From Planctomycetota bacterium (GTDB lineage Bacteria; Planctomycetota; UBA8742; UBA2392), in assembly GCA_020849795.1 (NCBI GenBank), contig JADZFR010000001.1, positions 1 to 64,000 on the forward strand: a DNA stretch of 64,000 nucleotides. The letters run 5' to 3'. A program made the translations under genes and the position numbers. The notes beneath the pieces are model-generated. The model was given only the letters and a program-made list of their open reading frames with translations, was not told the origin of the DNA and did no database searches. This document shows positions 43,082 through 47,012 of this stretch, one piece after another. Within the stretch, counting starts at the first letter, position 1. Each line of letters opens with the position of its first letter.

Positions 43082-43286
43082 GGTCTATTCACGAATAAAG
43101 CCGCAAGCGCGGCTGTTGAAAGAGGACGATATAAGCCGCAATGGGCGGCGCAATGGTCGAGTGACAAGCCGGGCACCCGAATAAAATGGTCCCAAATTGC
43201 ACTAAGGGCGCGTAGCATAGGAGAGTCAGGGGTGCCGGCGAATCGGTGCTGCGCCATTGCTGTGCTTCATTTTGGAAGGAACTGGG

Positions 43287-46200
43287 ATGCGTCTGCTATT
43301 CCTGCCCCTGGCGGCATTGTTGCTCGCCGGTGGCATGCTTTACGCGCAGGAGGGCCTTACCGCCGAGGTGCAACCACTCGTCGAAGGCAGCGTTGAGCCC
43401 GGCAAGCAGTGGACGTTCAAGCTGCAGTTTGCTCTTCCGGACGGGTATCACGCGTACCACAAGGACAATCCGGGCATCGGCATGGCGCCCAAGGTCAAGT
43501 TCACTCAGACATCCGGGCTGAAGCTCGCAAGCGAAGTCTGGCCCGAACCCACCAAGCACAAAGATGACAGCGGCGAAGAGTGGGAGTACTCAGGTACCTT
43601 CACCATCGGCTACATTTTTGACGTGCCGGCTGGGGCGAGCGGCAGGCTGCGCATTGCCGGGTCTCACCAGACGCAGTTCTGTGACGAAAACGGTTGCTTC
43701 ATGTCCGAGGCGGAATTCAGCGCCGACATCGAAGTCATCAGCGCAGAGCCGGTACTGGCATTAACAGTCGCGCCGATTGCCGAGGGCAAGGCTCAGGCGG
43801 GCAAAGAGTACACGCTGAAATTGCGCTTCACGGTGCCGGCGGGTTATCACGCCTACCATCGAGACAACAAGGGCTACGGCGTGGCGCCTATTGTGAAGTG
43901 GACCGAGCTTGCAGGCTTTGAGCTGGCGCGTGAAGACTGGCCCAAGGCCAAAGACCGGTACTACGAAGAACTCGAGGCCACGGAGTCCGAGTACAGCGGC
44001 ACGTTTGACATCGCCTATGTGTTCAAGGTGCCCGCCGGCGCCTCGGGCACCATCAAACTGGCCGGCACGCACCAGACGCAATTCTGCAACGATGACGGCT
44101 GCTTGATTACTGAGGGCGGCTTCAGCGCGGAAATTGCCGTGCAGGCCGGCGCAGAGGGCTCCAAGCCGAAGATCCCGACAGCAACCGTAAGCGCCGCGTT
44201 TCATGGCACAGCCAAGGCCGGCGGCGAAGCCACGCTTGAGCTGACGATTGAGCTGCCTGAGCACTTCCATACCTATCACAAAGATAACGCAACCGTGAAG
44301 GGCTATGGCGAGGCGCCCAAGGTTCAGTTCACGCAGACGTCGGGCATGACGCTGAAGTCGGAAAGCTGGCCCGATGCCAAGAAGGTGAAGTACGACGAAG
44401 ACTGGTACGAGCTTGAGTACGAGGGCAAGCTCACGCTCAAGTACACGTTTGAAGTGCCGAGTGCCGCGAATGCCAAGTTGCCGCTTACGGGCAGCTACCG
44501 AATCCAGGTCTGCGACGACGGCGGTTGCTACCTGAACGACGGCACGTTTTCGGCAACGCTGGAAATCGCAGCAACGGACGCGCCCCAGCCGACGCAAGAC
44601 CGTGCCCGAAAGGACAGCCACGGGTTCTACCTCGACTTCGATTACGCCCTTGAGCAGGCGCGTAAAGAGGGCAAACCGCTGCTGGTGGACTTCAACGGCG
44701 AGAATTGCGCTCCCTGCCGCAAGATGGAAAAGACCGTTTTCTCGCTGGTCGAAGTGAAGGAACTGTTCACTGGGTTCGTGATTGCCAGCGTGCAGAACGA
44801 CGTGAACGACGTGCGGTACAATGAATTGTGGGCCAAGTACCAGCCCACCCCCGGCGCGCCCGTGCCTTACTACGCCATCATGGACCACGACGCGAAGGTC
44901 GTGCGCGGCATAGGCAGCACGTTGCCCGCCGACAAGCGCGCCCACGAGTTCGTGGCATTCCTCAAAGGCGAGGCTCCAATGGAGCCCGCCCCGGTGGCCG
45001 ATCCGCCGTCAAAACTAACGCCCGCTGCAATCGGGCCCGCGGCCGCAGACGCACCAGGCTGGCCCAAAGGCTTGTTCGGGCCCCCGACCGAGGGACAGGC
45101 GCAGGGCATGGAGTTCAGTGCGGCGTTTGCAAGCGGCAAGGTGAAGCCCGGCAGCAAGAATTCGGTGGTTCTCAAGTTCACCATGAAAGACAACGGCGCC
45201 GGCGAAATTTACCACGCCTACCATCCCGGCACCAAAGCGACCGAGGTCAACATTCCGCTGACCGTAACGCTGAAAGACAATGGTGGCTTGAAGCCGACCG
45301 GCGAATGGAAGTACCCCGCCCCAGCCGAGAAAGTGGATGACGGATTCGGCGAAGAGTGGCGTCTTCCGCACGAGTTCACGCTGGTGCTGGATTTCGAGGT
45401 GCCATCCGACCTGAAGCCTGGCAAGTATACGGTGACCGGCCACGTCAACGGTCAGTACTGCGACAGCAACGGCTGCATTTTCTTTAACGCCAAGACAGCT
45501 GATTCTCCCAACCGCGAGTTCGGCTGGGTCGCCATGGTCGAAGTGTCGCTGGATGGCGCAGAGGGCGGCGTTACGGAGGCCACTGGCACCGGCGGCGGAT
45601 CGGGCATAGAGGGCGAAGTAGAGAAAGCGGGCGGCATCTGGCTGTTCCTGTTTTTTGCGCTGCTCGGCGGGATGATCACGCTTCTGACGCCTTGTGTTCT
45701 GCCGGTACTCCCGCTGACCGTGGGTTTCTTCGTCAGCCAGTCCGAAAAGGGCCGCTCGCCGCTGGTTACGGCATTCATTTACTGCACCTGCATTGTCGCG
45801 AGTTTCACGCTGTTCGGTTTGATCACGTCGGCCCTGGTTGGTGCAACCGGCGCGCAGCAGATCTCGACCAATGGCTGGGTGAACGGTTTCTTGGCCATTC
45901 TCTTCCTGACGTTCGCGCTGAGTTTCCTGGGGCTATTTGAACTGCGCGTGCCAGCGTTCATGACCGCATGGTTCACCAAGAAGCAGTTGACTGCACAGAA
46001 AGAGGGCAAAGGCTACGCCAAGGCCTTCTTCAGCGGCTCGGCATTCGCCTTGATCAGCTTTTCCTGCACCGGCCCCATTGCCGGCGCATTTCTGGCAGGT
46101 GCGGCAGGCGGCGATTTCTGGCTGCCGACGCTGGCAATGCTCGCCTTCAGTACGGGTATGGCACTGCCCATCTTCGTGATGGGCCAGTTCCCAAGCCTGA

Positions 46201-47012
46201 TGAAGAAGTTGCCCAAGTCGGGCGGCTGGATGAACGCGCTGAAAGTCGTGTTCGGCTTTGTCGAGATCGGGTTGGCCATCATGTACTTCAGTGCGGCTGA
46301 ACAGGCGTTCGCAAGCATGCCGGCGGCTGAGTGGGTCAACCGTTATGTAGTACTCGCGGTGTGGATCACGGTCAGCCTGGCCAGCGGCTTGTACCTGTTC
46401 GGGTTCTTCCGCATGCCGCACGACCACGAAGAAACTAAACAGATCGGAGTGATCCGGTCCCTCTTTGCGGTGGCCTTCATCGCGTTTGCGCTGTACCTGG
46501 TGCCGGGCATGTTTGGCGCCAAGTTCGGCCCGACCCTTGAGGGCATTTTGCCGCTTCCACCCGAGAACGGCGGTATCCAGCTTTCGCTGGGGGGCGGTGC
46601 GCCACGCAACGACCCCAAGTCGTTGCCCTGGGAGCATAACCTGGCAAAAGGCCTTGAGATTGCCGCCAAGGTGAACAAACCGGTGTTTGTCGACTTTACG
46701 GGCTATAACTGAAAGAACTGCCGTCTCGTGGAACGAGACATCTTTCCTCGCGATCAGGTCTTCAACCAATTCAAGGACGACTTTGTGCTTGTGGCACAGT
46801 ATACCGACGACCCAGACGACCCCGTCCCGGCCCAGAACCTTCACAAATACACCGGGGGAGGCAGTTTCGCGGTTCCGTTGTATATCGTCACGGATAGCAA
46901 GGGCCTTGAACTGGCGCGGCTTGTGCCGCCCACGAACATTTCGAGCCTCTCCGGAAGCCAGTTCGCCAGCTTCCTGCAGGACGCCAAGCAGAAGTACGCA
47001 GCCGGGGAGTGA
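43287..47012 (+). CDS. DsbD-type thiol:disulfide interchange selenoprotein (UGA at 46710-46712 read as Sec)
   Basis: A 1241-residue membrane protein when UGA is read through. Start ATG 43287 has GGAAGGA 6 nt upstream, and a signal peptide MRLLFLPLAALLLAGG. Three DsbD-alpha/DsbC-like domains follow (about 24-155, 160-290, 295-430), each with H-A/T-YH and a Cys pair such as FCDENGC. A thioredoxin domain with NCAPCRKM (about 471) and a fourth DsbC-like domain (about 610-750) come next. The DsbD membrane core carries TPCVLP (about 802) and SCTGP (about 925). The C-terminal thioredoxin domain reads VDFTGYN-U-KNCR, with Sec at 1142 where family members have Cys. The frame continues 100 codons past the UGA with clear thioredoxin-like sequence (VPLYIVTDSKGLELAR). 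It would carry electrons from the cytosol to periplasmic thiols. Confidence 0.88.
46710..46712 (+). other. In-frame UGA codon, candidate selenocysteine codon
   Basis: TGA occupies the position of the first Cys of a thioredoxin CxxC motif: the encoded context is TGYN-[UGA]-KNCR. The next in-frame stop is TGA at 47010-47012. Sequence homology continues across the codon, which argues against a real stop. Confidence 0.85.
46723..46739 (+). promoter_or_regulatory. Bacterial SECIS-like stem-loop
   Basis: A perfect 7-bp stem GTCTCGT / ACGAGAC with a GGA apical loop. The loop starts 17 nt after the last base of the UGA, inside the window expected for bacterial SECIS elements (about 16-37 nt), and its first loop base is G. 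It lies inside the coding region, where SelB binds in bacteria. Confidence 0.75.

Follow-up and report, generated by a model that had tools for sequence, protein, structure and literature searches.

The window analysed here, a 64,000-nucleotide stretch of planctomycete DNA, carries on its plus strand, on which the parts of the gene given below also lie, a gene at 43287..47012 (Sec-DsbD) whose predicted product has 1241 residues with selenocysteine (Sec) at position 1142, counted from the ATG at 43287; an in-frame TTG at 43257 offers an alternative start. Along this protein a signal peptide is followed by three DsbD_N domains, a thioredoxin domain, a further DsbD_N domain, the DsbD transmembrane domain and a C-terminal thioredoxin domain with a UxxC motif. 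The first three DsbD N-terminal (alpha) domains stand in tandem from 43344 to 44591; each contains a CxxxxC pair and exceeds the PF11412 cut-off. The internal thioredoxin domain (44589..45026; PF13899) has the motif CAPC, and the fourth, weaker alpha domain (45054..45626; CDSNGC) scores 21.3 bits with PF11412 against a cut-off of 25 (E 2.9e-4). The initial annotation had described four DsbC-like and two thioredoxin domains; Pfam bears out the count, and the four are DsbD_N domains rather than the DsbC isomerase.

The transmembrane (beta) domain (45639..46286; PF02683, E 2e-31; residues 795-1010 of P0001) holds two invariant cysteines, in TPCVLP and FSCTGP (C32 and C156 of alignment A2). The C-terminal thioredoxin domain (46524..47009; PF13899), assigned by profile and predicted fold, is DsbD gamma-like: profile comparison relates it to the solved gamma structures 2fwe and 1uc7, with which the predicted fold agrees, and in the structure model the UxxC lies where the first thioredoxin strand turns into the helix, the usual redox site. 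The features that define the DsbD family are all found, namely an alpha domain with a Cys pair, a membrane domain with two cysteines and a C-terminal gamma domain, here with UxxC. The score with PRK00293, the NCBIfam model of a DsbD subfamily, is below threshold (146 bits against a cut-off of 330), which places the protein in the DsbD superfamily and outside this narrow subfamily.

An in-frame UGA at the catalytic cysteine

The candidate Sec codon, assigned by comparison with relatives, is the TGA at 46710..46712, with which the redox motif UKNC begins. It replaces the first Cys of the C-terminal CxxC within DFTGYN-UGA-KNCR, as the initial annotation had read it, and the count from the ATG at 43287 agrees with the residue number 1142 given there. 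The frame likewise proved open past this codon, as claimed, up to 47012: 99 sense codons lead to a terminating TGA at 47010..47012, which overlaps the ATG of a downstream GGDEF-type gene, the final base of the terminator (47012) being the A of that ATG. Several Sec relatives share this terminal TGA. Over the 99 codons 3' of the UGA, comparison with the relative G002 gives Ka 0.042 and Ks 0.48 (Ka/Ks ~0.09), so that this stretch evolves as protein. A Ka/Ks value calculated against L029 for the 100 codons 5' of the UGA was left out of account, since the two sequences, compared unaligned, are out of register there. The pairing of a UGA at the catalytic Cys position of homologues with conserved coding sequence 3' of it is what is expected of a selenoprotein gene.

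The gene is present in 16/16 genomes of the family, and the aligned C-terminal codon is TGA in 12 and TGC in the other four (G006, G011, G013 and G015). Cys codons are the only alternative to UGA among the relatives examined, and TGA is retained in all close relatives. The initial annotation had proposed looking for a clean stop in close relatives; they keep the TGA, and the sequence after it is under purifying selection. Every family genome with TGA also has selB. In G013, the sole family genome without selB, both thioredoxin domains are of the Cys type. Its genus relatives do carry selB, and its assembly is 86% complete; G013 may have given up Sec recently, or the gene may simply be missing from the assembly.

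Sec machinery in the genome

The genome of the window (3.97 Mb, 94% complete) contains every component that the initial annotation had proposed to search for, namely selA, selB, selD and tRNA-Sec with a UCA anticodon. The selA gene lies near tRNA-Sec on the same contig, and the selB match scores 333 bits against a cut-off of 242. The selD gene is itself a selenoprotein gene of known type, with an in-frame UGA at GAGUGCK (L088, G000:C3:95500-98500). Within the window, UGA terminates 18 other long ORFs, and for this reason it is not generally reassigned.

The same genome encodes a separate small thioredoxin, preceded by a signal peptide, whose motif FTAEW-U-GPC includes an in-frame TGA (L087, G000:C36:3000-6500, minus strand), and TGA at homologous places is also seen in other family genomes. 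Judged by its sequence, this thioredoxin is likely a second periplasmic selenoprotein, and it could possibly be a partner of Sec-DsbD.

A candidate bSECIS hairpin

Downstream of the UGA, at 46723..46739, lies a candidate bSECIS hairpin in which the arms GTCTCGT (46723-46729) and ACGAGAC (46733-46739) enclose a GGA loop; it was assessed by compensatory changes, a synonymous-codon test and local folding. The perfect 7-bp stem and the loop are as first described, and the distance of 17 nt given for the stem needs correction: the stem begins 10 nt past the UGA and the loop 17 nt past it. A hairpin soon after the UGA with a G in the apical loop is what a bSECIS element should offer. In a local fold the stem is the minimum free energy structure (-9.3 kcal/mol), with 7/200 shuffles equally good, and against synonymous randomisation the window hairpin alone is borderline (p 0.05-0.07). 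A general RNA fold of 46707-46760 found no significant structure, the hairpin emerging only in the shorter register and by comparison, and a longer stretch favours another fold, which makes the evidence from the single sequence weak. An Rfam search returned zero matches.

Comparative evidence argues that the hairpin is more than chance. The stem reads GUCUCGU-GGA-ACGAGAC in the window genus and in G009, GGACCGU-GGA-ACGGUCC in G004, G008 and G014, and GAACCGU-GGA-ACGGUUC in G005; three pairs are altered on both sides and so doubly compensated, and the covariation score was reached by 0/500 shuffles. The stem is absent from the Cys (TGC) relatives, which are the more distant ones. Four relatives have a C-terminal hairpin that is weak or unlike this one: the 7-bp stem is missing from G003, and G007, G010 and G012 form another hairpin at this site; some members of the phylum lack even a simple stem of at least 5 bp. 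In a phylum-level set of 42 Sec and 30 Cys genes, mean hairpin energy is -7.1 kcal/mol for Sec versus -3.3 kcal/mol for Cys (Mann-Whitney p 5e-6), and p-values from synonymous randomisation are lower in the Sec genes (p 2.6e-7), both tests being optimistic because the genes compared are related.

A probable second Sec site in the internal thioredoxin

The internal thioredoxin, which has Cys in the window gene, carries a TGA in six relatives (G007, G008, G010, G011, G012 and G014), in the motifs UGPC, UTAC or UGAC. A strong hairpin follows the internal TGA at L032, L033, L036, L040, L041 and L042, and in most of the six relatives it has the form GAGCGUGA-GGUCU-UCACGCUC, with a loop that seems to resemble that of the E. 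coli fdhF SECIS. Sec would be present in both thioredoxin modules of G007, G008, G010, G012 and G014, in the internal module only of G011, and in neither module of G006, G013 and G015. Judged by the TGA and Cys codons at the two sites, all four combinations occur within one family, with Sec in the C-terminal or the internal module alone, in both or in neither. At L035 (G015) and L037 (G013) the internal site is Cys and a strong hairpin stands immediately downstream (synonymous p 0.014 and 0.007, respectively); these hairpins are possibly remnants of a lost SECIS.

Distribution across Planctomycetota

The exact pattern FTGxx-UGA-xNC was searched in a sample of 292 Planctomycetota genomes, with the reversed pattern as control. 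It matches 65/292 genomes versus 1/292 for the reversed pattern, and 28 of the 30 matches that were fetched sit in long DsbD frames. The other two (L060 in G215 and L082 in G161) were rejected as chance matches: their frames run for only 40 and 26 aa and do not match DsbD. The selB gene is found in 63 of the 65 pattern-positive genomes versus 186/292 overall (Fisher p 2e-12). The two exceptions are G161, a chance match, and G232, a 90%-complete draft. In G232 the pattern match lies at G232:C133:8119-8145 and selB was not detected, although its genus sisters have the gene; its absence is probably a draft gap. The Cys version of the pattern occurs in 53/292 genomes, and selB is missing from 12 of these. 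Mapped onto a 72-protein tree, the Sec/Cys state requires at least eight changes, with starred branches forcing at least four, which indicates repeated switching of the residue between Sec and Cys.

Alternative explanations

We are highly confident, from sequence comparisons, that the gene specifies a transmembrane thiol reductase of the DsbD family and that this protein is a selenoprotein, with the UGA at 46710 read as Sec through SelB and the hairpin. The initial annotation had already proposed a selenoprotein DsbD, and this reading is supported by the Sec machinery, by conservation of both the UGA at the catalytic Cys and the hairpin, and by the coding constraint. The frame does end mechanically at the UGA, and a 94-aa ORF could begin at the GTG at 46728, so one might suppose a true stop that leaves a DsbD truncated after its membrane domain beside a separate small ORF, or a decaying gene. 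Such an ORF would lack the strand and the redox motif of the thioredoxin fold, strong purifying selection acts on the codons beyond the UGA, and the UGA is exchanged only for Cys among the relatives examined and kept in all close ones; we regard a true stop as very improbable. General readthrough or reassignment of UGA in this genome, for example to Trp, would account for the internal UGAs of selD and of the periplasmic thioredoxin too, yet these fall at catalytic positions known to hold Sec or Cys, the genome has selA, selB and tRNA-Sec, and so many long ORFs of the window end in UGA that we give this reading scarcely any weight. The source is a draft assembly, and a TGC misread as TGA, an error that the initial annotation had considered, would dispose of the codon altogether; the same TGA recurs in many independently assembled genomes together with a covarying stem, which in practice excludes a sequencing or assembly error and leaves it a vanishingly small chance.

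A different kind of alternative accepts the selenoprotein and questions its novelty: it may simply belong to a UxxC family already listed as "thiol:disulfide interchange protein", with nothing new except the host. We take the conserved domain cd02953 to be the DsbD-gamma domain. A 2008 survey of the GOS data assigns to cd02953 a UxxC family of 22 sequences, "Trx-like 2 (Thiol disulfide interchange protein)" (PMC2398784), and a "Thiol:disulfide interchange protein" (PF13098, UxxC) is listed in two selenoprotein inventories (PMC9312934 and PMC13188914). These entries precede our observation, so Sec in a domain of the DsbD-gamma type is not new in kind, and the UxxC in a DsbD-gamma-like thioredoxin domain is common to that family, whose reference sequence is WP_011366075.1, and the window protein, which has the UxxC and scores 25.3 with PF13098 against a cut-off of 27. 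Against a simple identity, the accessible parts of these sources list the family by its thioredoxin domain alone and from Deltaproteobacteria and marine metagenomes, a comparison made by description; and in the open-licence literature we found no description of the full multidomain membrane architecture, the second Sec site in the internal module, the covarying SECIS or the broad presence in Planctomycetota. Membership in the listed family is a possibility that we take seriously and lean against.

A working model and its significance

We posit that the UGA at 46710 is decoded as Sec by SelB and Sec-tRNA(UCA), steered by the adjacent 3' hairpin, and that the UGA at 47010 would end translation. 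If the protein works as its homologue DsbD does, electrons would pass from the cytoplasmic thioredoxin system to the two membrane cysteines and on to the C-terminal domain, in which the selenol of UxxC would be the attacking residue; this domain would then reduce each of the four alpha domains and, probably, the internal thioredoxin as well, and through them periplasmic targets. General selenoprotein chemistry suggests that, with Sec as the attacking residue, thiol exchange would be faster and the site better protected from irreversible oxidation. For the phylum as a whole, we consider it reasonably probable that Planctomycetota practise selenium-dependent periplasmic reduction through a multidomain DsbD, in which the selenol has been moved between two modules of one relay, each with its own SECIS.

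The proposed arrangement makes Sec a catalytic residue of an electron relay across the membrane in about one-fifth of the sampled Planctomycetota genomes, as counted by the exact pattern. Annotation that takes UGA as a stop would cut such proteins just short of the active site. Switches between Sec and Cys at two homologous positions of one protein, among close genomes that mostly have selB, provide a natural test of the benefit of Sec in thiol-disulfide exchange, and the same switches inform on the gain and loss of SECIS elements inside coding sequence.

Comparison with known systems

E. coli DsbD shares with the window protein the alpha, transmembrane beta and thioredoxin gamma modules, the two membrane cysteines and the gamma fold. 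It differs in having a single alpha domain, whereas the window protein has four and an extra internal thioredoxin, and in using Cys where the window protein would have Sec as the first residue of the gamma pair. The Trx7/PDZ (seleno)protein family (NF041199) also has a Thioredoxin_7-type domain in a selenoprotein; its listed motif is CxxU, and the window protein scores 49 bits against a cut-off of 300. TsoB (NF045694), a selenoprotein with a DsbD-type membrane domain, was considered as an identity for the window protein and rejected (160 bits against a cut-off of 805); it is listed as a rhodanese-domain protein with UxxxxU, unlike the UKNC in a thioredoxin domain seen here. The 2026 inventory of prokaryotic selenoproteins also lists TsoB, as rhodanese/DsbD fusion-like, and names no multidomain Sec-DsbD (PMC13188914). 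In our judgement, a multidomain Sec-DsbD that is widespread in Planctomycetota is new relative to that inventory, its nearest precedents being the UxxC "thiol:disulfide interchange protein" and TsoB.
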